64,000 nt of DNA, from NCBI RefSeq assembly GCF_900103475.1, contig NZ_FNHG01000010.1, forward strand, positions 1 through 64,000, written 5' to 3'. The stretch's first letter is position 1. The number at the start of each line of letters is the position of its first letter. The notes below the pieces were generated by a model. That model was not told the origin of the DNA. It was given only the letters and a program-made list of their open reading frames with translations, and ran no database searches. The translations under genes and the position numbers were made by a program. Origin of the DNA: Maricaulis salignorans. GTDB lineage: Bacteria > Pseudomonadota > Alphaproteobacteria > Caulobacterales > Maricaulaceae. This document shows positions 8,519 through 32,969 of the stretch, in pieces.

Positions 8519-9601
8519 ATGACCGATACCGCTGCACTGGAAACCCTCGAGCAGGACGTGCTCGCACAGATCGCCGCCGCGACCGATGAGGCCGGCCTTG
8601 ATGCCGTGCGCGTCGGGGCGCTGGGCAAGAAGGGGTCTGTCTCGCTGATGATGCGCTCGTTGGGCGGCATGAGCCCGGAAGAACGCCAGGTGATGGGTCC
8701 GGCGCTGAACGGTCTCAAGGACCGGCTCGGCTCGGCGATTGAGGCGCGCAAGGCGATGCTGGAAGCCGCCGCGCTTGATCTCGCCCTGGCCTCCGAGACG
8801 ATCGATGTCTCCCTGCCGGTGCGGCCCGAACCAAAGGGTTCGATCCACCCGATCACCCAGGTGATGGAAGAACTCGCCGTGATTTTCGCCGATATGGGCT
8901 TTGCCGTCGCGGAAGGCTCGGACGTGGAGGACGATTTCCACAATTTCACGGCCCTGAATTTCCCGGAAGGCCATCCGGCGCGCGACACCCAGGACACCTT
9001 CTTCATGAAGCCGGACGCCGAGGGCCAGCGCAAGGTTCTGCGCACCCACACCTCGCCGGTCCAGATCCGCACCATGATGAGCCAGACGCCGCCGATCCGC
9101 ATTATCGCGCCGGGCCGGGTCTATCGCTGTGACTGGGACCAGACCCACACGCCGATGTTCCACCAGGTCGAAGGCCTGGTGATCGACAGGGAAACCCATA
9201 TGGGTCACCTCAAGGGCGTGTTGCAGGACTTCCTCGCCGCCTTCTTCGAGACCGATGAAGTCGTCACCCGTTTCCGCCCGCACCACTTCCCCTTCACCGA
9301 GCCATCGGCGGAGATGGATGTGCGCTATGAGCGCGTCGGCCAGGCCGTGAAGGTGGGCTCCGGCGATCAGTGGATGGAGATTTTGGGCTGCGGCATGGTG
9401 CACCCGAATGTGATCCGCAATTGCGGCCTCGATCCGGACGAATACCAGGGCTTCGCCTTCGGCATGGGCGTTGATCGCCTCGCCATGCTCAAATATGGCG
9501 CCCCGGATTTGCGCGATTTCTTCAATTCCGACCAGCGCTGGCTCGGCCATTACGGCTTCTCGCCGCTGCTGCAGGCGAATATGGCAACCGGTCTGAGCTG
9601 A
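8519..9601 (+). CDS. pheS: Phenylalanyl-tRNA synthetase alpha subunit
   Basis: The 360-residue catalytic subunit of the class II synthetase charges tRNA-Phe with phenylalanine as an alpha2-beta2 tetramer with PheT. The N-terminal coiled coil is followed by [19 protein letters not shown], the motif 2 region [23 protein letters not shown] and the motif 3 sequence [17 protein letters not shown]. The start at [13 protein letters not shown] is the standard family start. Its stop codon overlaps the ATG of the next gene by one base. Confidence 0.97.
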
Positions 9602-10221
9602 TGTGGCGCTGGTTCACCAATAACCACCAGACCCTGACCGGGATCGGCGCCATGCTCGTCGGCATCGCGGCCCTGTTTGTGGCCTGGGACCAGGGCCGGG
9701 TGATGCGGGCGCAGCAGCATGGTGCGGTGGTGCCGGTGCTTCAGGTGGACGGCTTTATCCAGTCAACCGAGACGCGGCGCCATCTCGGGCTGCGGATTCT
9801 CAATAATGGTGTCGGCCCCGCCATGATCCGCACGGTATCCCTGTTGCGTGACGGAAATCCGCAGGACGGGTTCGCCCCGCTGGCGGCGCATTTTCCAGCC
9901 GCGTTTGACCGCTCATGGTCGAGCGTGAATGGTCGCGCCCTGGCACCGGGCGGCGAGGTCGAACCGGTCGTCTTCACCTGGGATCGCGACGCGCTGAGCG
10001 AAGACGAGCTGACGGCCTTGCTCGATGAATGGACCCATTGGGGGGTGTCGGTCTGTTATTGCTCCGTGTTTGATCGGTGCTGGATCTCATCCTCCAGTGA
10101 GGCCGCGCGTGAATCGGCCCGCGCCTGTCCGCCCGGGCAGATCGATCAGTTCGAACGCATGGGCGCTTCGGACCGTCCCGACCTGCCCTATGCCGAGACT
10201 GCCGGGGAGGCGACGCCGTGA
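9601..10221 (+). CDS. Unassigned single-pass membrane protein between pheS and pheT
   Basis: This 206-residue product has one N-terminal hydrophobic helix (about residues 12-32, TGIGAMLVGIAALFVAWDQG). A soluble domain follows, with an early beta-strand motif RRHLGLRILNNGVGPAMIRTV. A short Cys-rich stretch, VCYCSVFDRCW, lies near residue 155. I do not recognise a family with a defined function. It is translationally coupled to pheS (TGATG overlap) and lies 114 bases before pheT, so it is probably in the same transcript, although no link to tRNA charging is evident. Confidence 0.65.
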   Translation: MWRWFTNNHQTLTGIGAMLVGIAALFVAWDQGRVMRAQQHGAVVPVLQVDGFIQSTETRRHLGLRILNNGVGPAMIRTVSLLRDGNPQDGFAPLAAHFPAAFDRSWSSVNGRALAPGGEVEPVVFTWDRDALSEDELTALLDEWTHWGVSVCYCSVFDRCWISSSSEAARESARACPPGQIDQFERMGASDRPDLPYAETAGEATP

Positions 10222-23742: not shown

Positions 23743-23829
23743 GCCCAGGTGGCGGAATTGGTAGACGCGCTAGCTTCAGGTGCTAGTTTCCGAAAGGAAG
23801 TGGAAGTTCGAGTCTTCTCCTGGGCACCA
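23743..23829 (+). tRNA. tRNA-Leu (anticodon CAG)
   Basis: The 87-base gene has the acceptor stem GCCCAGG/CCTGGGC, a D-loop with GGCGGAATTGGTAGACGC and the anticodon stem CTAGC/GCTAG around loop TTCAGGT. The long variable arm of class II tRNAs, the T-loop GTTCGAGTC and an encoded CCA are all present. Its 3' end is the left attachment site of the downstream element. Confidence 0.97.
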
Positions 23830-23846
23830 TTACTCCGATTTTTGTC
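23816..23846 (+). repeat. Left attachment repeat (attL) at the tRNA 3' end
   Basis: The 31-base segment runs from TCTCCTGGGCACCA in the tRNA end through CTCCGATTTTTGTC. Against the right copy it shows 28 matches, two substitutions and one extra G. Weaker similarity continues to a CCGGC-TTTT-GCCGG hairpin at 23859-23872. Confidence 0.85.
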
Positions 23847-23931
23847 GTCCTGTGAAATCCGGCTTTTGCCGGAAACCCGTTGATTTACTAGCGAATCCGC
23901 TAGTGACCTGTCCGGGGTCGTCCGACGAAGA

Positions 23932-23969
23932 TTGTTGGCATCCAGCCGAATTGTTGGTACTTTTGTTGG
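23932..23969 (+). repeat. Integrase arm-type motifs, left end
   Basis: TTGTTGG occurs at 23932-23938, 23951-23957 and 23963-23969, just inside attL and before the integrase gene. The last two are 12 bases apart, the same spacing as the pair at the right end. Direct repeats in this position are typical of integrase N-terminal domain binding sites; the role is inferred. Confidence 0.55.
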
Positions 23970-24009
23970 TATCTTTCAATTCGAGCGCGCTGAGGCGCAA
24001 GGCTGGCGA

Positions 24010-25224
24010 ATGGCCATCACAGATATCCAGATCAAGGCCTTCAAACCCGCCGCGAGTGCGTTCAAGCGCAGCGATGGCGGCGGCCTTCACCTGTTGCTAT
24101 CCCCCAGCGGCGGCAAGCTCTGGCGACTGGCCTATCGGTTCGATGGCAAACAGAAAACTCTCGCGCTGGGGGCATATCCCGCTGTTTCTCTCGCACTGGC
24201 GCGGCAAAGACGGGACGACGCCAAAACCCTGCTCGCCGAAGGCGTTGACCCATCGGCCCATGCCAAGGCCGCCAAGCGGGCGCTGAAGGCCATCCGGCAA
24301 GACACCTTCAAGGCCATCGCCGCCGAATACGTGGTGAAGGTCGAAAAGGAAGGCCGCGCGAAAGCGACGATGAAGAAAATCCGCTGGATGGTGGACCTTG
24401 CCAATGTCGACCTGGGCGACCGCCCGATCACCGAAATCACTGCCAGCGATGTACTCATCCCGCTGCGCAAGGTCGAGACCGCCGGAAACCTTGAAACCGC
24501 GCGCCGCCTTCGCTCGACCATCGGGCAGGTGATGCGCTTCGCCATCGCGTCAGCTAGAGCCACCCACGATCCCACCCAGGGCCTCAAGGGCGCGCTCACC
24601 GCCCCGACTGTCACCCACCGCGCGGCGATCACCGATCAGGCCAAGGTCGGCGCGTTGTTCCGAGCCATCTGGACGTATGACGGCACGCTGGAAACCCGCG
24701 CCGCCCTCCAACTCATGGCCCTGCTCTATCCGAGGCCCGGCGAATTGCGGAACGCGGAATGGACAGAGTTCGATCTGGACGCTGGCATCTGGATCATCCC
24801 GGCAGAACGCACAAAGATGCGGCGCGAACACCGCAAGCCCTTATCGAAGGCGGCAGTGGCGATCCTGTGCAATGTCCGGGAGATGACCGAATCGCGAAAG
24901 CTCGTCTTCGCTTCCGTGAGTTCCCTGCGGCGCCCGATGAGCGAGAACACCATGAACGGCGCGCTCCGGCGGCTCGGCTTCAAAAGCCACGAAGCCACCT
25001 CGCACGGCTTCCGCGCGACCGCGTCCAGCCTGCTAAATGAAAGCGGGAAATGGCATCCGGATGCAATCGAAGCCGAGCTTGGGCATGTGGGATCGGAAGA
25101 GGTCAGACGCGCCTATCATCGCGCCGCATATTGGGACGAGCGCGAGCGTATGACAGAGTGGTGGGCAAGTGAGGTGGAGCGGTTAAGGTTGCAGGCTCTG
25201 GATGATGATTCTACCGCGAGGTGA
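24010..25224 (+). CDS. P4-type tyrosine integrase
   Basis: Started at MAITDIQIKAFKP, the usual family start, it has 404 residues. The N-terminal DUF4102 arm-binding domain contains DGGGLHLLLSPSGGKLWRLAYRF and LALGAYPAVSLALAR. The catalytic domain carries RPGELR (Arg242), HGFR (His332, Arg335), GH (His359) and the nucleophile Tyr369 in AYHRAAYW. Such integrases recombine at tRNA 3' ends. The gene lies directly downstream of, and in the same direction as, the target tRNA. It appears intact. Confidence 0.95.
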   Translation: MAITDIQIKAFKPAASAFKRSDGGGLHLLLSPSGGKLWRLAYRFDGKQKTLALGAYPAVSLALARQRRDDAKTLLAEGVDPSAHAKAAKRALKAIRQDTFKAIAAEYVVKVEKEGRAKATMKKIRWMVDLANVDLGDRPITEITASDVLIPLRKVETAGNLETARRLRSTIGQVMRFAIASARATHDPTQGLKGALTAPTVTHRAAITDQAKVGALFRAIWTYDGTLETRAALQLMALLYPRPGELRNAEWTEFDLDAGIWIIPAERTKMRREHRKPLSKAAVAILCNVREMTESRKLVFASVSSLRRPMSENTMNGALRRLGFKSHEATSHGFRATASSLLNESGKWHPDAIEAELGHVGSEEVRRAYHRAAYWDERERMTEWWASEVERLRLQALDDDSTAR

Positions 25225-25229
25225 TCACA

Positions 25230-26156
25230 GTGGCGCAACCCGATAGGACACCAGAGCAGACACGCATTCACCGTATATGGATGATCTTCGGCACCAAGTT
25301 CCCGGATTTCTGCATCAACGGCCTCGAGAAGTTTCGACCTGAGGGTATCTTCCTCACAGCGCCAGAGCAGGGTTTGACCGGCGAGCAAGCCATTGCTGCC
25401 CGCGTGTTCCATGACGAATTGGTTTCGCTTTCGGATTCGGACTTGGACGCAAGGTGGAACGCAGCGCTGGCCGAGGAACAAGCCAAACGTGAAGCCGCGC
25501 ACCCCCTGAACCAACATGTCGCGGATGCGGCAACATACGACTTCTACTCGAAGGCCGCCTATTGGACCGTCGATGAGTGCTGCGCGCTATTGGTCGCTCG
25601 CCATCCGCGAAAGGTCGACCTGAAGGCGATCCAGTCCCACGGACGGACATCTCAGATCGCGCGGCAGTTTCTGGACCTGCACGACCTCGTAACGCGGGCT
25701 GTATCCATGAACCAGCTAGCACATCGAAATTTGCCGGGATTCTTCCTAGCTTGGGCCGACCGGAACCGGCTGCCAATCCCGGACGGACTCGCCTCGGCAG
25801 TCCAAAACCACGGAGTTCAAGTCGCGGACTGGAAGACTTACTACGACAAGCGGGGCGAAGTGATTGCCGGGCTTCAGGCCAGAATCAGCCAGCTTGAAAA
25901 TGGGTCGCCGCCAGAAGCCGTCGACCCAATGGCGAAGCCCCTCGATCCGCGCGAACGTGCCAGCCTGCTCAAGATGGTGCTCGGATTGGCAATGGCCATT
26001 TACGGACATGATCCACGGCAGACCCGGATGAAGTCAGTCAGCGAAATCAAATCAGAGTTGGACCGCGTCGGCATCACCATGTCTGACGACACGATCCGCA
26101 GATACCTTCGGGAAGCGAACGAGTACGCGCCCGACGGATATCCGGAATCCGAATAG
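25230..26156 (+). CDS. Island protein of unknown function
   Basis: The start GTG at 25230 follows GAGGTGATC, a 9-base match to the 16S 3' end, inside the stop region of the integrase gene. The 308-residue product has no membrane segment. A central FYSKAAYWTVDECCALLVARHP helix suggests a small wHTH-like module. A C-terminal block, RERASLLKMVLGLAMAIYGHDPRQ then MSDDTIRRYLREANEY, is a pattern common in uncharacterised proteins of proteobacterial islands and prophages. It is translationally coupled to the integrase. Function unknown. Confidence 0.7.
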   Translation: MAQPDRTPEQTRIHRIWMIFGTKFPDFCINGLEKFRPEGIFLTAPEQGLTGEQAIAARVFHDELVSLSDSDLDARWNAALAEEQAKREAAHPLNQHVADAATYDFYSKAAYWTVDECCALLVARHPRKVDLKAIQSHGRTSQIARQFLDLHDLVTRAVSMNQLAHRNLPGFFLAWADRNRLPIPDGLASAVQNHGVQVADWKTYYDKRGEVIAGLQARISQLENGSPPEAVDPMAKPLDPRERASLLKMVLGLAMAIYGHDPRQTRMKSVSEIKSELDRVGITMSDDTIRRYLREANEYAPDGYPESE

Positions 26157-26247
26157 TCGCTAATCGGTATTCGGTATTCCCAATACGGCCTACCGCGCTG
26201 AAAACCTTCCTAAACCGACCTCGCACTTGGCAACACGAGGTCACATC

Positions 26248-26454
26248 ATGGACGACAAACCCGCACTCCCGGCGACTGGATTTCTCCGCCTTCGCTCGAT
26301 CATCGCCCCGCACGGGCCGATCCCGGTCAGCAAATCCACCTGGTGGGCAGGCATCAAGGATGGCCGCTTTCCCAAACCCCTCAAGCTCGGTTCCCGGATC
26401 ACGGTCTGGCGCATCGAGGATATCCGCGCGCTGATCGAAAACGGGCCTTGCTGA
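26248..26454 (+). CDS. AlpA-like HTH regulator
   Basis: The 68-residue protein starts at 26248, 7 bases after GAGG. The segment VSKSTWWAGIKDGRFPKPLKLGSR followed by TVWRIEDIRALIE is the AlpA/MerR-superfamily HTH used by P4-like elements to control integrase and excision genes. It therefore probably acts as excisionase or as activator of the integrase. The next gene starts one base after its stop codon. Confidence 0.88.
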   Translation: MDDKPALPATGFLRLRSIIAPHGPIPVSKSTWWAGIKDGRFPKPLKLGSRITVWRIEDIRALIENGPC

Positions 26455-26455
26455 G

Positions 26456-26941
26456 ATGGCCCGCAAGGTGAGCTGGCGGTCGGTGCGGCGGCATCGGAAC
26501 TACACGGTCGACGAGGCGTCCAGGGCGCTGGGCATCTGCAAGGCCACCGTGCGCCGCTGGATCAAGACCGGCCTCCCAGCCCTCACGGAGCAAAAACCTG
26601 CCCTGATCCTCGGCGAGGCGCTGATCGCCTTCCTGAAGGCCCGCATTCCCGCGAAACAGACATGCCGGCTGGAGGAGTGCTTTTGCCTCGCCTGCCGCAC
26701 ACCGAGGCGGCCTGCATTCGACGAGGTCGAGGTCCGGCTTCAGCAAGGCGGCGGCGGCATGATCACCGGCCTGTGCAGCGAGTGCTCGGCGACCATGAAC
26801 AAACGCGTCTCGGCGGATGGTCTGGAACGTATCCGGCGGGTTTTGACGGTCGGCGCCATGCAGGCGGACGGACACATAAGCAAGAGCCACCCACCCTGTT
26901 CAAATGCACACAATCCCGAGGAGCCAGAAACCCATGCCTAA
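26456..26941 (+). CDS. HTH protein with a cysteine cluster
   Basis: The 161-residue product has an N-terminal helix-turn-helix of the MerR/excisionase kind (YTVDEASRALGICKATVRRWIKTGLP, residues 16-41). A cysteine set, CRLEECFCLAC then CSEC (about residues 70-110), probably binds zinc. Comparable HTH-Cys proteins sit just upstream of recombinase genes in other islands. It overlaps the beginning of the second recombinase gene by 8 bases. Probably a recombination directionality or regulatory factor. Confidence 0.75.
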   Translation: MARKVSWRSVRRHRNYTVDEASRALGICKATVRRWIKTGLPALTEQKPALILGEALIAFLKARIPAKQTCRLEECFCLACRTPRRPAFDEVEVRLQQGGGGMITGLCSECSATMNKRVSADGLERIRRVLTVGAMQADGHISKSHPPCSNAHNPEEPETHA

Positions 26942-28040
26942 GCACCATGCCAAAAACGAACGGACCAAGCACCGCTACTTCGCCTATCTGGAGGAAGCCA
27001 AGCGCATGGCACCGAGCAGCGTTGACCAAGTCGCCGCCGCTATTTCGCTGTTCGAGGCGTCGACTGGACACAAGGATTTTGGTGCCTTTCATATTGAGCA
27101 AGCGCGGCGCTTCAAACGTGAACTTGAGAACGCCAGACACGGGAAGACCGGCAAACCGCTGGCCAAGGCGACGATCCATTCCCGGCTCATGGCGGTGAAG
27201 GCTTTCTTCCACTGGCTGGCGGGTGAACCGGGCTACAAGTCGAAGATCCGATATGCTGACAGCGAGTATTTCAACCCCTCTGCCAATGACAGCCGGATCG
27301 CCACCGCAAAACGCGAGCGGCCTGCGCCGGAACTGGGCCAGATCGAGTATGTCCTGCGGCAAATGCCCCATGAAACCACGTTACAGAAGCGCGACCGGGC
27401 GCTGATCGCCTTCGCCATCCTCACTGGCGCCCGCGACGATGCCATCGCCTCGTTGGCCATCCGCGATGTCGACCTTGCCGCGCGCAAACTGTTTCAGGAC
27501 GCCCGCACCGTGCGCACCAAGAACCGCAAAACGATCACCTCATGGTTCTTTCCGGTTGGCGCGGAGATCGAAGCGATTGTCGCCGAGTGGATCGAACACC
27601 TGAAAGCTGAGTGCCTGTTCGGTGCCGACGATCCGCTATTTCCCGCCACAAAAGTGGGCCAAAATGCCGATCAACACTTCACCGCCCTCGGTCTCGACCG
27701 CAAAGCCTGGTCAAATGCCGACCCGATCCGCCGCATCTTCAAAAAAGCGTTCGAAGCGGCAGGCCTGCCCTATTTCAACCCGCACTCATTCCGCAAGACA
27801 CTGGCCCGGCTCGGCGAGTCGATCTGCGCCACGCCCGAGGATTTCAAGGCGTGGAGCCAGAATTTAGGACATGAGCAGGTGCTGACTACGTTCACCAGCT
27901 ATGGCAGCGTGTCGAGCTATCGGCAGGCGGAGATTTTGGCGGGACTGCGGCAGAGCCCCCGTGCGCCCGTCGCTCGCGCCGACGTGCCAGAGGCAGTCCT
28001 AGCGTGGCTGGACACCGTGGCCATACGAGATCGTCGCTAG
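26934..28040 (+). CDS. Second tyrosine recombinase
   Basis: This 368-residue protein starts MPKHHAKNER behind GAGGAG. A SAM-like core-binding domain (residues 10-100, THKDFGAFHI-like helices, KATIHSRLMAVKAFFHWLAGEPG) precedes a catalytic domain with Arg167 (TGARDDA), Lys195 or Lys198, His284-x-x-Arg287 (HSFRKTL), His313 (GHE) and Tyr323 (TSYG). All catalytic residues are present. It lacks the DUF4102 arm domain and is not closely related to the integrase at 24010. It could be a resolvase or targeting recombinase for another site. Confidence 0.92.
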   Translation: MPKHHAKNERTKHRYFAYLEEAKRMAPSSVDQVAAAISLFEASTGHKDFGAFHIEQARRFKRELENARHGKTGKPLAKATIHSRLMAVKAFFHWLAGEPGYKSKIRYADSEYFNPSANDSRIATAKRERPAPELGQIEYVLRQMPHETTLQKRDRALIAFAILTGARDDAIASLAIRDVDLAARKLFQDARTVRTKNRKTITSWFFPVGAEIEAIVAEWIEHLKAECLFGADDPLFPATKVGQNADQHFTALGLDRKAWSNADPIRRIFKKAFEAAGLPYFNPHSFRKTLARLGESICATPEDFKAWSQNLGHEQVLTTFTSYGSVSSYRQAEILAGLRQSPRAPVARADVPEAVLAWLDTVAIRDRR

Positions 28041-28105
28041 GGCGCAGCGCCCCTCGGCCTTGCCGCATGGTCGAAATCGGTATTTCTTCTGCAGCTGAAA
28101 CTAGG

Positions 28106-28198
28106 AACGATCCTCACACCCGAGGCGGCAAGATAACGGTCGAAAATGGCCAAGTCGCCTGTGCGCACTGCAATCTCTCAAAAGGGGCAAATGCCTGA
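28106..28198 (+). pseudogene. C-terminal remnant of an HNH endonuclease
   Basis: The frame contains NDPHTRGGKITVENGQ followed by VACAHCNLSKGANA, matching the end of an HNH domain (second half of the His-Asn-Cys site with the C-x2-C pair). Upstream no homologous sequence is seen in any frame; the frame opens only at a GTG inside the recombinase gene. The first half, including the catalytic DH, is lost. Its stop overlaps the methyltransferase start (TGATG), so it may persist as a translational leader. Confidence 0.6.
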
Positions 28199-30003
28199 TG
28201 CCGACGCTCGATTGGATAGGAAAGCAGGCCGTGGTGAACCACCACCGCGAAGTGCCATATCGACTGGTCCATTGCGACAGTGAGTTATCGGCAGGCGATC
28301 CGGACGCGGCAAATCTGCTAGTTCAAGGCGACAATTTGGAGGCTCTGCGAGCCTTGTTGCCTTACTATGCAGGCAAGGTGAAATGCATCTATATCGACCC
28401 GCCCTACAACACTGGCAACGAGGAGTGGGCCTACAACGACAATGTAAACTCCCCCGAAATAAGAGCTTGGCTTGAAAAAACAGTAGGGAAAGAGGGCGAA
28501 GATTTATCGCGTCATGATAAGTGGCTGTGCATGATGTACCCTAGGCTACGCCTGCTACGCGAATTCCTAGCTGACGATGGGGTAATATTCGTATCATTGG
28601 ACGACTTTGAGGCCTCACGGTGCAAGATTTTACTTTCTGAAATATTTGGAGAATCGAATTTCATCGCTAACCTCATTTGGAAGAAAATGGATAGCCCAAG
28701 TTCAAATGTGGGCAGACGGATTGTTTCAAATTATCACGATCACATTCTCTGGTTTGCTAAGAACAAAGCAGAGGCAGATTTAATTCAGTTGCCATCACCG
28801 GACATTCTCAACGCATATCCTGTCGTGATGAACGGCAAACGTGCGCGTTGGAGACAGTTGAGAAAAAATGGAAAGGCCGCTCGACGCGCAGATCGACCGA
28901 ACTCTTGGTTCAAGATGATCGCGCCGGACAAAACCGAAGTCTGGCCGGTGCACCCCAAAGAAGGCTGGGAGGGTCGATGGAGCATCGGTCCGGACACATG
29001 GAAAACAATCGAAAATACCGATGAGGTTAAATGGGAACGGCGCCCCTACGGCTGGACACCCTATCGAATCGAATACGCGAAGGACGTTCCCACCATGCCG
29101 CTTGCCTCGATCATCGATGACGTTAGTCAAAATCGACAAGCCAAGGCGCAGCTCAATCAGATATTAGGCACCAATCATGGATTTGAAACACCTAAGCCCT
29201 ACGATCTAGTGGAACTTCTCATCTCTCTCTGTGGCGATCAAAATGCGTTGGTCCTTGATAGCTTTTGCGGGTCCGGAACCACCGGGCACGCCACGTTGGC
29301 GCTGAATGGGCGCGACGGCGGCAATCGTCGGTTCATCCTGATTGAGATGGATCAAACGGTTGCAAAATCGGTAGCAGCACCGCGATTGAGCAAGGTAGTA
29401 GAGGGATACAAAACTTTTACGAAGGCGAGCGAGACCATTTTTGAGAGAAAAATTGGCCTCAAGGAGTTGAGGGCGCCTGAAACGGTTCTGAATGAATGCG
29501 AAGAAATCAAAGACGAGAAATCCCTAGACTTCGATGAAATCGAGCGCAGCTTTGAGGGCGGCACCCTCAGATTAGTGGGAGCGCGTCCCGCTGGTGCCGA
29601 AGTCCCAGGTCTTGGCGGAGGCTTTCGGTTCTGCCAACTCGGGGTGCCTTTGTTCGACGAGTTTGGCGACATCGCAGGAGATGTCGCTTTCGCAGATTTG
29701 GCCGCACACATCTTCTTTTCTGAGACAGGAGTTCCGATCCCACACCGTGCCAGCTCGGAGCTGCTCGGCGTATTTCAAGACCGTGCGGTCTACTTATTGT
29801 TCGACCCCGCGCATGCCGACACGCCTCGTGAGGCGATTGGCAACGTGTTGACGCCGGATAGGCTCAACACCCTGCCACCGGGGCCAGAGGACTTCACGGG
29901 CACCCACGTAATCTACGCCGAGGGCTGCACCGTATCGGCGGAACGCCTGAAGCGTGCTCACGCCGTGTTCAAACAAATTCCATATCAAATTGAGGGCGCA
30001 TAG
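28198..30003 (+). CDS. mod: Type III-like DNA methyltransferase (Mod)
   Basis: The 601-residue enzyme has the beta-class order: DPPY catalytic motif at 67-70 (CIYIDPPYNTGNEEWAYND), a variable recognition region, then the S-adenosylmethionine motif DSFCGSGTTGHA (354-365). DPPY indicates N6-adenine methylation. The C-terminal 200 residues contain RAPETVLNECEEI and a domain found in Mod proteins paired with helicase-type Res proteins. The stretch around 28440-28760 is clearly AT-richer than its neighbours. The res gene follows after 3 bases. Confidence 0.92.
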   Translation: MPTLDWIGKQAVVNHHREVPYRLVHCDSELSAGDPDAANLLVQGDNLEALRALLPYYAGKVKCIYIDPPYNTGNEEWAYNDNVNSPEIRAWLEKTVGKEGEDLSRHDKWLCMMYPRLRLLREFLADDGVIFVSLDDFEASRCKILLSEIFGESNFIANLIWKKMDSPSSNVGRRIVSNYHDHILWFAKNKAEADLIQLPSPDILNAYPVVMNGKRARWRQLRKNGKAARRADRPNSWFKMIAPDKTEVWPVHPKEGWEGRWSIGPDTWKTIENTDEVKWERRPYGWTPYRIEYAKDVPTMPLASIIDDVSQNRQAKAQLNQILGTNHGFETPKPYDLVELLISLCGDQNALVLDSFCGSGTTGHATLALNGRDGGNRRFILIEMDQTVAKSVAAPRLSKVVEGYKTFTKASETIFERKIGLKELRAPETVLNECEEIKDEKSLDFDEIERSFEGGTLRLVGARPAGAEVPGLGGGFRFCQLGVPLFDEFGDIAGDVAFADLAAHIFFSETGVPIPHRASSELLGVFQDRAVYLLFDPAHADTPREAIGNVLTPDRLNTLPPGPEDFTGTHVIYAEGCTVSAERLKRAHAVFKQIPYQIEGA

Positions 30004-30006
30004 AGC

Positions 30007-32655
30007 ATGGCGGCGGTCAATTTTGAATTACGCAGTTACCAGCAAGACGCGCTGGATCGGTTGCGAGATTATCTCGTCAAAGTCCCAAGCCTTGGGGCGG
30101 GCACATCGTTCTATGCCGTAACGAATGCACCCTACCGGCCCGTGCCGGTGATGAACCCCGAAACGCCCTATATCTGCGTCCGCATCCCGACTGGTGGCGG
30201 CAAGACGATTGTCGCAGCCCATTCGATTGGCGTGGCGGCGAAGACCTATCTGCAAGCCGACAATCCAATGGTGCTGTGGCTGGTGCCGTCGACAGCCATC
30301 CTGGACCAAACCTTGAATGCGTTACGCGATCTGAATCACCCCTACCGGACAGCCCTGGCAGCGGACTTTGGCCGTAACCTTTCCGTTTTGACGGTGCAGG
30401 AAGCCCTGTCTCTCTCCCGGCCCGATGCGACTGGCGGCGCCTGTATAATCGTCTCGACGATTCAGGCCTTCAGGATTGAGGAAACCGCCGACCGGAAGGT
30501 CTATCAGGACGCAGGCGCATTGATGGATCACTTCAGCGGGCTAGATCAATCCCAGATTGATCGGCTGGAAAAGGTCGAAGGCACGCACCGCCCCGTCGCT
30601 TCGCTCGCCAATGTCTTGCGACTGCACCGCCCGATGGTCATCGTCGATGAAGCACACAATGTGCGCGGGCCGCTTTCCTTCGATACCTTGGCGCGGTTTG
30701 ACCCGTCTCTGGTGCTTGAATTCACGGCGACGCCGCAACTGACTCACGATCCGAAAAACAGCAACGAGCCCTCCAACGTCTTGTATCACGTCTCTGCGGC
30801 AGAGCTGAAGGCCGCCGAAATGATCAAACTTCCGATCCGGCTGCAGACGGACACGGACTGGAAAAAAGTCATCGGTCAGGCGCTCGATTGTCGCACCGCG
30901 TTGGAGGAGGCAGCACAGGCCGAGCAAGCAGAAACCGGGGAATATATTCGTCCAATCATCCTGTTTCAGGCCCAATCGAAATCCAGCACCGATCCTGATC
31001 GTCTCATTCCAGAATCCGTTGCGAATTTCCTGACCGACGACAAGCGTATTCCGCGCGATCAGATCGCGATTCATGGCGGCGGTTTCAAAGAGCTTGATGG
31101 GCTGGACAATATCGCAGACCCGGCATGCCCGGTGCGCTATGTCGTTACCATTCAGGCGCTGCGGGAAGGTTGGGATTGCCCCTTCGCCTATGTGCTGTGT
31201 TCCGTCGCAGAGCTGAAATCCGCAACCGCGGTGGAGCAGATTCTTGGCCGGGTGTTGCGCATGCCGAAAGCGCACCGGAAGAGCCGAGACCTGCTTAATC
31301 GTGCGTATGCCTTCGTCGCTTCCGCGAACTTCAACGCCACGGCGGAAAGCCTCAAAGACGGCCTCGTCGACGGCGCGGGCTTTGATCGACTGGAGGCGGC
31401 AGAGCTCGTTAAGGCTCATAGCGAACTCCAACTAGACGACCCGCGTAGCGAATACGTCCACACCTCAGAGCCACTGCCTGAAGCAACGATGGCGAGCGAA
31501 ATTGACGACGCGATTGAGAAGTTACCTCCGTCAATGAAGGCTCGGGTTCAATTCGAACCGGAGACGCGGAAGCTCAATATCCTTGGAACTGTTTCTCGAG
31601 ATCAACGGAACACGATGCTGTTGGCGTTTTCCAAGGTGAAGGGCGCCGAGCGCGTGATCGATAGGGTCTTCATCAGTTCGAACCGGATACAGGCCAGCGA
31701 ACTACCGCCGGGCGAGCGCCTGCCATTTATCGTGCCGCGCCTTTGCATCATGCGCCAAGGCGAATTGGAGCTGTTCGGGCCCGATCATTTCCTCGACCTG
31801 CCCTGGAATCTGGCTGATTGCGACCCGGTTCAATTCGTGAACCGTTACCAAATCAAGGATGCTACGAAGGCGGGCCTGATCGATGTTTCGGATGAGGGGA
31901 AAATGAATATCGCCTTCGTCGGGGAACTACAGTCTCAACTCGCAACATTGATCCATGAGCCCGCATGGACCTTGCCGCGTCTCGTGAACTGGATCGACCG
32001 GGGGATTCCTCACCCCGACGTCACCAAACCTGCCGCCCGGATTTTCATCCAAAAGGCGCTCGAAGCACTTCAGACCGTCAAGGGCTACTCGCTTGATGAG
32101 CTGGCGCGCTACAAAGCCGAGCTCCGTCGATCACTTGCGGACGAAATCCAAGCCCTGCGCCAGGAACGTGAAGCCGGCTGTTACGCCGCCCTGTTTACGA
32201 ACGACGCCCAATCATTCGCAACGGATTCTGGGATGGCACTCGTCTTTGACGATCAGAGCTATGCCTACAACCAGCCCTATAAGGGCGCCCGAAAATTCAA
32301 CAAACACTATTTCCCGATCATCGGCGATCTAAAGCCAAGCGGTGAGGAATTCGATTGCGCCGTTTTCCTCGATGAGCACCACAGCGTGCGTCACTGGGTC
32401 CGCAATGTTGATCGCAAGCCCAATGCCTTTTGGCTGCAGCTTCCAAGTGGTAAGTTCTATCCTGACTTTGTGGCGTTACTGACAGATGGCCGCATCCTTG
32501 TTGTGGAGTACAAGGGCGCGGATCGGCTCGCCGGAGCGCAGGACAAACTCAAGATCGGCGAATTATGGGCGGAGTCGAGCGACGGGAAATGTCTATTCAG
32601 CATGCCCTCAAATCGTGACTTCAGTCAGCTTTCCGCGCTGATCGAGGGGAAATAG
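30007..32655 (+). CDS. res: Type III-like restriction helicase-nuclease (Res)
   Basis: This 882-residue superfamily 2 ATPase has Walker A PTGGGKT at residues 61-67, DEAH at 214-217, the motif III-like FTATP and the motif VI-like EQILGRVLRMP. Near the C-terminus, YPDFVALLTDGRILVVEYKG gives a PD-(D/E)xK nuclease with Asp820, Glu834 and Lys836. ATP-dependent translocation and cleavage after interaction with Mod is the expected activity. All core residues are present, so the pair looks functional. Length and order fit type III Res. Confidence 0.92.
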   Translation: MAAVNFELRSYQQDALDRLRDYLVKVPSLGAGTSFYAVTNAPYRPVPVMNPETPYICVRIPTGGGKTIVAAHSIGVAAKTYLQADNPMVLWLVPSTAILDQTLNALRDLNHPYRTALAADFGRNLSVLTVQEALSLSRPDATGGACIIVSTIQAFRIEETADRKVYQDAGALMDHFSGLDQSQIDRLEKVEGTHRPVASLANVLRLHRPMVIVDEAHNVRGPLSFDTLARFDPSLVLEFTATPQLTHDPKNSNEPSNVLYHVSAAELKAAEMIKLPIRLQTDTDWKKVIGQALDCRTALEEAAQAEQAETGEYIRPIILFQAQSKSSTDPDRLIPESVANFLTDDKRIPRDQIAIHGGGFKELDGLDNIADPACPVRYVVTIQALREGWDCPFAYVLCSVAELKSATAVEQILGRVLRMPKAHRKSRDLLNRAYAFVASANFNATAESLKDGLVDGAGFDRLEAAELVKAHSELQLDDPRSEYVHTSEPLPEATMASEIDDAIEKLPPSMKARVQFEPETRKLNILGTVSRDQRNTMLLAFSKVKGAERVIDRVFISSNRIQASELPPGERLPFIVPRLCIMRQGELELFGPDHFLDLPWNLADCDPVQFVNRYQIKDATKAGLIDVSDEGKMNIAFVGELQSQLATLIHEPAWTLPRLVNWIDRGIPHPDVTKPAARIFIQKALEALQTVKGYSLDELARYKAELRRSLADEIQALRQEREAGCYAALFTNDAQSFATDSGMALVFDDQSYAYNQPYKGARKFNKHYFPIIGDLKPSGEEFDCAVFLDEHHSVRHWVRNVDRKPNAFWLQLPSGKFYPDFVALLTDGRILVVEYKGADRLAGAQDKLKIGELWAESSDGKCLFSMPSNRDFSQLSALIEGK

Positions 32656-32676
32656 ATCGAGATCAAGCGATCAGAT

Positions 32677-32695
32677 TTGTTGGTTCTTTTGTTGG
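32677..32695 (+). repeat. Integrase arm-type motifs, right end
   Basis: TTGTTGG at 32677-32683 and 32689-32695, 12 bases apart, repeats the left-end pair. The 22-base block around the pair differs from the left copy at a single base. It lies between the res stop and attR. The remaining bases of 32656-32969 hold attR and the DUF411 leader and show nothing else. Confidence 0.55.
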
Positions 32696-32760
32696 TATAT
32701 CGTAAATTCTGTGCATTATAATCGCGTTAAATCAATGTGCTACCGCACGAAGTCGACGCC

Positions 32761-32790
32761 TCTCCTGGCACCATTCCTCCGATTTTTCTC
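32761..32790 (+). repeat. Right attachment repeat (attR)
   Basis: TCTCCTGGCACCATTCCTCC and the following GATTTTTCTC correspond to the left repeat, with one G missing from the tRNA-derived part. A CCGGC-CCTT-GCCGG hairpin follows at 32803-32816, matching the one beyond attL. Confidence 0.8.
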
Positions 32791-32969
32791 ATCGAGTAAT
32801 ATCCGGCCCTTGCCGGCCCCTCGGGCGCGATGCGTTGAACCGGTGGGGCTGATGGCCGGGGGTGCGCCATGGTGGGCGTTGGCTTGACAAGACCCCTGGC
32901 TTTGAGCCTGCTGGGCAGCCGGTGGATCGGGTCCGCCGGAGTGCGGCACCAACCATAGGGGGAGTGATC

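Follow-up and report, generated by a model that had tools for sequence, protein, structure and literature searches.

The island and its genes

The window (the whole stretch of DNA analysed, 64,000 nucleotides) contains a P4/IntS-type integrative island that carries a type III restriction-modification cargo and occupies the 3′ end of a tRNA-Leu(CAG) gene. ARAGORN called the tRNA gene at 23743–23829 on the plus strand, and the integrase frame begins 180 bp 3′ of it (ATG at 24010; the stop ends at 25224); the integrase lies between a complete tRNA gene and a displaced 3′ tRNA fragment, the arrangement of a tRNA-targeted island of this type. The called tRNA, the adjoining integrase and the terminal repeat agree with the element of about 9.0 kb and the ends proposed in the first-pass annotation. 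No second tRNA-Leu CAG gene was present among six matching places in the genome, and the target is apparently the host's single CAG gene.

Comparison with relatives lacking the island, suggested earlier as a check, bore out the insertion: rnd follows tRNA-Leu in 13 of 17 congener loci fetched, starting 0.9–9.1 kb away (in G009, measured from the second of two tRNA copies) and usually followed by lptC-lptA-lptB-rpoN, while of the four other loci three lie on contigs that stop early, and in G001 no rnd appears in the 18 kb fetched. Because these flanking genes are kept together in relatives without the island, the 9 kb is an insertion. The genes are as follows.

23743–23829, plus strand: intact tRNA-Leu(CAG), integration target and left end of the island, attL (ARAGORN; acceptor pairs 7/7)
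24010–25224, plus strand: P4/IntS-type tyrosine integrase, 404 aa, with arm-binding, central and catalytic domains (Pfam Arm-DNA-bind_3, Phage_int_M, Phage_integrase; alignment)
25221–26156, plus strand: protein of unknown function, 311 aa (homologue behind the integrase in the G002 island, 46%)
26227–26454, plus strand: AlpA-like protein, candidate recombination directionality factor (excisionase) (Pfam Phage_AlpA above cut-off)
26456–26941, plus strand: helix-turn-helix protein (HTH_17 and weak 'excise' profile matches)
26904–28040, plus strand: second tyrosine recombinase, XerC-like, 378 aa (Pfam Phage_integrase; all NCBIfam matches below cut-off)
28004–28198, plus strand: remnant with only the C-terminal half of an HNH endonuclease domain (Pfam HNH 21–46 of 47; score 20.7 bits, cut-off 21.4)
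28198–30003, plus strand: type III restriction-modification methyltransferase (Mod), 601 aa (PADLOC MTase_III 2e-160; Pfam N6_N4_Mtase)
30007–32655, plus strand: type III restriction enzyme (Res), 882 aa (PADLOC REase_III 1e-143; Pfam ResIII)

The adjacent, full-length mod and res genes predict a type III restriction-modification system, and the integrase and AlpA-like protein are likewise full-length open frames. The AlpA-like protein is probably the directionality factor; CP4-57 AlpA gave no match to it in BLASTP at E ≤ 10. In a comparison with phage satellites (PICI), which carry packaging or helper-dependence genes, seven island proteins were scanned with PHROGs; both recombinases, the methyltransferase and Res, which is helicase-like, were the only ones to give matches.

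Recombination sites and the terminal repeat

The following features lie at the two ends.

23816–23822, plus strand: putative 7-bp exchange (overlap) segment in attL, tRNA positions 63–69 (right-end identity to the host tRNA)
23859–23872, no strand: hairpin CCGGC-TTTT-GCCGG, 3′ of the tRNA on the island side, possibly a terminator
23933–23942, plus strand: arm-type site TGTTGGCATC, one base off the IntS arm consensus TGKTGGTATC (PMC11963761)
23952–23961, plus strand: arm-type site TGTTGGTACT, first of a doublet with a 12-bp period, two bases off consensus
23964–23973, plus strand: arm-type site TGTTGGTATC, exact IntS consensus (PMC11963761)
32678–32687, plus strand: arm-type site TGTTGGTTCT, first of the right-end doublet, three bases off consensus
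32690–32699, plus strand: arm-type site TGTTGGTATA, second of the right-end doublet, one base off consensus
32730–32742, plus strand: IHF-like site, one mismatch to the IHF consensus WATCAANNNNTTR
32761–32773, plus strand: right-end tRNA fragment (attR) TCTCCTG/GCACCA, positions 63–69 and 71–76, with the base-70 gap between 32767 and 32768
32803–32816, no strand: hairpin CCGGC-CCTT-GCCGG, right of attR on the chromosome side, possibly functional

We recomputed the end repeat (left copy TCTCCTGGGCACCATTACTCCGATTTTTGTC; right copy TCTCCTGG-CACCATTCCTCCGATTTTTCTC) and obtained the figures reported before, namely 31 columns with 28 matches, one gap and two mismatches. The G absent from the right copy is tRNA base 70, which in the left-end tRNA is position 23823; the small deletion lies 3 bp upstream of the discriminator, and only in the displaced fragment. 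Both hairpins noted earlier were located, but an island end at 32790 falls short of the right one. As base 70 is absent on the right, only the left core reproduces the tRNA 3′ end in full, whereas in IntS-type elements both do: the integrase and arm sites are related to IntS, while the site is of another kind.

Three arm-type sites on the left and two on the right match the five published for IntS-type elements, four of them being one to three bases off the consensus; the right-end doublet has a 12-bp period and lies 94–95 bp from the CCA end. IHF-like sites (at most one mismatch, 20–60 bp from the core) occurred in 16 of 35 right ends, against 3.4% of shuffles. Positions 63–69 equalled the host's own tRNA in 26/26 arm-anchored right ends (for L112 and L166, the zero mismatches were taken from the arm-anchored search), with mismatches starting at positions 62 and 61. 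Judged from these identities, the exchange most likely falls within positions 63–69. Left and right ends were identical at positions 71–76, and the next base agreed in 17/30.

Of 137 genomes in the family, 11 contained the 13-mer with the missing G and none (0/137) the same pattern reversed, which is more than chance. Seven of the 11 matches had the arm doublet, three (L096, L097, L106) had no arm sites, and L098 was a whole tRNA belonging to another island type.

The position-70 lesion across related islands

The survey covered 76 islands, counting the window's own. The right end could be located in 30 and not in the other 46; 24 of the 30 lacked base 70 and six were intact. The search anchored on the integrase arm sites gave 22/26 right ends without the base, six of 32 candidates (L127, L132, L135, L161, L173, L183; five mismatches of 16) having been dropped as unrelated. 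The island-side tRNAs were intact in 76/76, with 7/7 acceptor pairs. The lesion was observed in other species and with Leu, Phe, Thr, Asn and Gly tRNAs, for which position 70 was the only deletion class in common. No convincing single-base deletion was found elsewhere in the last 16 tRNA positions of the 76-island set; of the ten 'other position' classes, nine were shadows of intact copies and the tenth was a weak match (L068, position 72). As controls, the opposite strand of the same downstream DNA gave 0/76, and downstream DNA of other islands gave 18 class matches in 1140 pairs.

G002 and G049 also have the base-less right-end core, in each case following a homologous integrase; in G005 the core lies on a different contig. 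The first two have the form of the case named in the first-pass annotation as refuting the island (both repeats kept, with other DNA between them), yet they are different islands with a homologous integrase at the same site. Within positions 61–76, the close pairs L149/L151 and L110/L113 differed solely in presence or absence of the base. On a quick integrase tree (43 rows, 13 of them assigned from copies elsewhere in the genome, including, without the 12-bp doublet, L133 from L300 and L109 from L314), rows with the lesion show at least 10 changes of target tRNA, and the lesion state clusters (7 changes versus 11.4 in shuffles).

Whole-genome pattern searches, from which part of the matches were fetched and then sorted by arm doublet, yielded further copies unlinked to an integrase; leaving out four already counted (L299, L308, L313, L315), doublet-bearing copies numbered eight without base 70 (L281, L288, L295, L297, L304, L305, L307, L322) and nine intact (L269, L270, L273–L276, L278, L293, L316), six of the nine being from Mesorhizobium. 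Copies without the 12-bp doublet carried the lesion in L300, L306 and six lacking arm sites (L268, L283, L284, L290, L292, L296), and were intact in L289, L314, L318 and L321. L290 and L292 have common flanks, as expected of a gene. Of 40 extra regions, 14 with a 27–34% identical integrase had no tRNA beside it, and 19 others with a tRNA gave one right-end copy (L227, Gly, 50%), which was intact. Viral contigs held junction-like cores upstream of integrases (e.g. L326, L393, L396), with no natural attP from an island with a known right end among them. These results indicate that the base-70 lesion is common in the island group, and not universal.

Probable origin of the lesion and predicted consequence of excision

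We consider it probable that the loss of base 70 is tied to integration, and that excision would leave a tRNA-Leu(CAG) without base 70, loss of the defence island thereby costing the cell a tRNA. The integrase would insert the island at the 3′ end of tRNA-Leu(CAG); the left end would then combine the chromosomal 5′ part with a 3′ end from the island's own copy, and the right end would be the displaced native 3′ end, shortened by base 70 alone, which borders the exchange segment. The lesion would accompany integration in many islands of the group ('tDNA-fragment damage') rather than arise by later decay. If the integrase excised the island, probably with help from the AlpA-like protein, the 5′ part would be joined again to the damaged 3′ end, an addiction- or switch-like effect in which island loss probably leaves the bacterium with a faulty tRNA. 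The sequences show the anatomy, the arm and core sites, the recurrence and position of the lesion and the intact island-side tRNA; from these we infer excision competence, the tRNA effect and a benefit to the island.

Several observations count against this explanation. Intact right ends exist (6/30 linked, L227 and nine unlinked), as do the intact right-end fragments of E. coli K-12 CPS-53 and CP4-6, and in the predicted post-excision sequence ARAGORN still calls a tRNA, shifted by one base. The genome also contains tRNA-Leu(UAG), which could read CUG codons by wobble, and loss of tRNA-Leu(CAG) may therefore be mild.

Alternatively, attP itself may lack base 70, the exchange falling to the right of it (71–76) or including it; the right end would inherit the gap at each insertion as a fixed attP/attB length difference, and excision would restore the tRNA at no cost to the host. 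A 6-bp exchange is possible there, given the identity of the ends at 71–76 and the fall to 17/30 agreement at the next base, and the clustering of the lesion on the integrase tree fits an inherited feature. We initially preferred this account, but the published damage cases demoted it, among them CP4So, whose excision leaves the target gene damaged (PMC5148205); moreover, each of the at least 10 target changes would demand a new attP that regains the gap with tRNA-specific bases, and the right-end fragment matches the current host's tRNA at 63–69 throughout. We therefore regard it as possible but doubtful.

It is improbable that the island is defunct, with excision no longer possible, the cargo domesticated and an integration-derived lesion without consequence. 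The broken HNH remnant would fit such a state, but the four principal frames (integrase, AlpA-like protein, Mod and Res) span their full length, all five arm sites of the published arrangement are present, divided between the two ends, and CP4So, with a comparable one-base end difference, excises (PMC5148205). Random decay through long residence, or exchange between related islands, as the first-pass annotation read the imperfect repeat, is scarcely credible: the end copies do differ at two further bases and beyond the tRNA, but differences outside the tRNA are expected because the flanking DNA comes from the chromosome at one end and from the island at the other, and the same single base, at a position known from published cases, is gone in many separately inserted islands, with no convincing deletion at the other last 16 positions.

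Returning to integration-tied loss, nothing in the island ends argues against excision, because CP4So does excise while losing one base of its target gene. Rather than whether the island can still excise, as asked earlier, the better question is what excision does to tRNA-Leu. What looked like decay can instead be read as a signature: in a large group of islands, right ends are marked by a gap of one base at tRNA position 70, and this gap may point to an otherwise hidden price of island loss. Should excision act on the tRNA as predicted, the host's dependence on the island for a tRNA would be what keeps this defence island in place.

As a tentative and less than likely extension, the integrase group might cut one base out of the displaced native tRNA end as a programmed step of insertion, in any tRNA and in many lineages, tying host to defence island through tRNA loss; such 'target poisoning' would be widespread in Alphaproteobacteria and set per integrase lineage. 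Neither the Mesorhizobium tRNA-Phe islands nor the two observed tRNA-Glu islands have the lesion. Were the extension true, a lesion known from tmRNA islands and satellites would represent a widespread alphaproteobacterial strategy.

Comparison with known systems

The lesion type itself is already known, and the window's island adds another case. Williams 2002 and Williams 2003 are reportedly the primary sources on tDNA-fragment damage. For some tRNA and tmRNA islands, the Islander paper (PMC4383910) and Tommasini, Mageeney & Williams 2023 (PMC10111431) describe it as a small deletion that affects the displaced 3′ fragment at a point 3 bp upstream of the discriminator, and propose that excision debilitates the tRNA gene in an addiction module-like manner. 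The window's island likewise has its deletion at position 70 and an intact island-side gene; in contrast to the account of Tommasini et al., exactly one base is missing in the counted cases, which are IntS-type islands, mostly from Alphaproteobacteria, in eight tRNA isoacceptors. The literature searched, covering few subscription journals, held no report of the lesion in alphaproteobacterial IntS-type islands. For Sinorhizobium meliloti, PMC11476347 mentions one attP from which a single nucleotide is deleted, at a different tRNA gene.

In E. coli CP4-57, comparison of ssrA (CAGCTCCACCA) with the right-end psaA (CAGCCCACCA) shows position 70 unambiguously missing. Excision of CP4So from Shewanella (S. 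oneidensis) requires AlpA and takes one base from the target gene, as recorded for two excised colonies with a one-base deletion at the ssrA 3′ end and loss of tmRNA function (PMC5148205). Both elements resemble the window's island in a P4-type integrase adjoining the target gene, in AlpA and in defence or restriction genes. They differ in targeting the tmRNA gene instead of tRNA-Leu, in size and cargo (22 kb for CP4-57 and 36 kb for CP4So, against 9 kb) and in the integrase, which is only 38% identical to CP4-57 IntA.

The Mesorhizobium tRNA-Phe islands, whose integrases are 54–56% identical to the window's, look IntS-like, as judged by genus, target and arm sites alone. The IntS of ICEMlSymR7A has five arm-type sites with the consensus TGKTGGTATC and a core of 17 bp that matches the tRNA end exactly, with no base missing (PMC11963761, PMC5882170). 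The window's island shares the five arm-type sites (three and two), whereas ICEMlSymR7A is a 502-kb conjugative element with an intact 17-bp core and the factor RdfS.

Island anatomy and related loci

An earlier first-pass annotation had proposed a tRNA-Leu(CAG) island with imperfect ends, which is borne out by the tRNA, the integrase and the right-end tRNA copy; its end repeat (31 columns, 28 matches, one gap, two mismatches) is exact as described. As an island, the element is ordinary, and is organized as follows (window coordinates).

23743-32773, integrative island at the 3' end of tRNA-Leu(CAG)
First gene, tyrosine integrase (404 aa) with arm-binding, central and catalytic domains
25221-26156, second gene, after the integrase, 311-aa protein of unknown function with a weak helix-turn-helix match only
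Third gene, AlpA-like protein
Fourth gene, after the AlpA-like gene, helix-turn-helix protein
26904-28040, second tyrosine recombinase, XerC-like, inside the island beside the restriction-modification genes
28004-28198, HNH nuclease remnant, C-terminal half of the domain only, just upstream of mod
Last in island order, full-length type III Mod and Res

The XerC-like recombinase may move its own cassette, and the HNH half-domain is a sign of cargo exchange upstream of mod. A 46% identical counterpart of the 311-aa protein lies behind the integrase in the island of genome G002.

Among 17 congener loci fetched, rnd starts 0.9–9.1 kb past tRNA-Leu in 13 (G009 has two tRNA copies, and the distance there is taken from the second one); three others lie on contigs that stop early, and G001 has no rnd within 18 kb. 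Integrase homologues follow the same tRNA in G002 (74%), G005 (57%) and G049 (61%). In G009 (locus L075), another kind of island carries a complete, undamaged tRNA-Leu at each end, the two places lying ~13.3 kb apart, with GGTACA-type repeats near the ends and a shared block that includes ~17 bp upstream of the tRNA.

Recurrent loss of tRNA base 70

The right-end core without its G (tRNA base 70) was found again in G002 and G049 and on another contig of G005; in the family it occurred in 11/137 genomes, compared with 0/137 for the reversed pattern, and seven of the 11 copies, the window's included, were accompanied by the arm-site doublet.

We then took the best 80 of a larger number of loci from an integrase-alignment scan of genome contigs; 70 had a tRNA within 300 bp upstream of the integrase, and six additions (the window, L068, L071, L084, L225, L226) gave 76 islands, 38 of them examined with additional downstream DNA. 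Every single-base deletion and insertion across the last 16 tRNA positions was searched and treated alike. A right end was detected for 30 islands: 24 were deleted in the class containing position 70, and six (L110, L112, L147, L149, L166, L177) were intact; the same search of downstream DNA found no right end for the other 46. Position 70 is the sole position common to all deletion classes (69–71 for Leu(CAG) and Phe, 69–70 for Leu(TAG) and Leu(TAA), 70–71 for Thr and Asn, 68–70 for Gly). The opposite strand of the same DNA gave 0/76, and downstream DNA of other islands gave class hits in 18 of 1140 pairs.

A second search, anchored on the arm doublet (up to 5 mismatches of 16; 32 candidates, 26 kept), showed base 70 absent in 22 right ends, one of them a new case, Leu(CAA) L131, and four right ends intact. 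Both counts contradict the random decay previously suggested for the repeat. In all 26, positions 63–69 and 71–76 were identical to the host's own tRNA, mismatches beginning at position 62 (three) or 61 (one). Acceptor pairs were 7/7 in all 76 island-side tRNAs.

In G025 (L086, minus strand, ~9554–9639), a 10-kb insertion carries at its far end a full-length second tRNA-Leu without base 70, so the same lesion is also present in an island type whose arm sites differ.

Intact ends and distribution on the integrase tree

Whole-genome pattern searches also yielded copies that carry the arm doublet but are not linked to an integrase, eight of them without base 70 and nine intact. Six of the intact copies came from Mesorhizobium, in agreement with the identical 17-bp core published for ICEMlSymR7A (PMC5882170). 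The right-end copy of an extra region, L227, was also intact. The two tRNA-Glu islands whose right end was detected (L147, L177) were both intact; with two cases, this may reflect chance or a target effect. Apparent tandem arrays on G188 contig C5 and G197 contig C23 (L304, L316, L306, L318) have an intact inner junction and a last copy without base 70.

On an integrase tree of 43 rows, 30 of them scored from linked right ends and 13 from copies elsewhere in the same genome (a quick method with many weak forks), lesion and intact states required 7 changes vs 11.4 in shuffles, so the lesion state is clustered. Among the lesion rows, at least 10 switches of target tRNA are needed. In each of the close pairs L149/L151 and L110/L113, one member has the base and the other lacks it.

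Origin and consequence of the loss

Exchange would occur within tRNA positions 63–69, and the displaced native end would lose base 70, adjoining that segment; excision of the window island would then leave a tRNA-Leu(CAG) without base 70. We consider this the probable explanation, with moderate confidence. Exchange at 63–69 is favoured because the fragments match the current host tRNA from position 63 on and because, in S. oneidensis CP4So, a U was gone from the ssrA 3' end in two excised colonies, destroying a G.U pair and abolishing tmRNA function (PMC5148205); the same study names AlpA as the CP4So excisionase. Alternatively, attP itself might lack base 70, so that excision would restore the tRNA. 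We regard this as rather unlikely. An attP from an island with the lesion would decide between the two, but the viral contigs searched yielded none.

Six places in the genome gave matches, none of them a second CAG gene, and base-70 loss following exchange at 63–69 could act on excision as an addiction or a switch. That an insertion-made one-base loss is a common target-poisoning strategy, tying host to island, is a tentative extension that we doubt more than we believe. The split of eight to nine among unlinked copies lowered our confidence slightly both in the main explanation and in this extension.

Comparison with known systems

Three TGTTGGYAYY copies, two spaced 12 bp, lie between the window tRNA and the integrase, and two more sites of this type, 12 bp apart, lie ~95 bp from the CCA end at the right. 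The doublet stands 93–99 bp from CCA in the 26 kept right ends, with varying letters (GTTGGT, TGCGGG, ATTGGG, GATGGT, GTAGGG), and is displaced, altered or absent in L147, L154, L168, L177 and L180. An IHF-like site between doublet and core was present with at most one mismatch in 16/35 right ends (3.4% in shuffles) and exactly in 8/35 (0.5% in shuffles). IntS of ICEMlSymR7A has five arm sites, TGKTGGTATC, all required for efficient integration (PMC11963761); against this consensus, one of the window's five sites is exact and four are off by 1–3 bases.

In E. coli K-12 CP4-57, ssrA reads ...CAGCTCCACCA and the right end ...CAGCCCACCA, the missing base being unambiguously position 70; the annotated pseudogene psaA (L405 24473-24486) is this ssrA fragment without exactly that position. 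The CPS-53 and CP4-6 fragments are intact, and none was found for leuX within the stretch fetched. Tommasini, Mageeney and Williams describe variable-length deletions from a specific acceptor-stem site, confined to satellites within their set, and propose an addiction-like role upon excision (PMC10111431). The odd end of the window island is a known lesion type, here in a group of IntS-type islands, mostly from Alphaproteobacteria and spread across eight isoacceptors, for which the literature searches turned up no description of the lesion.
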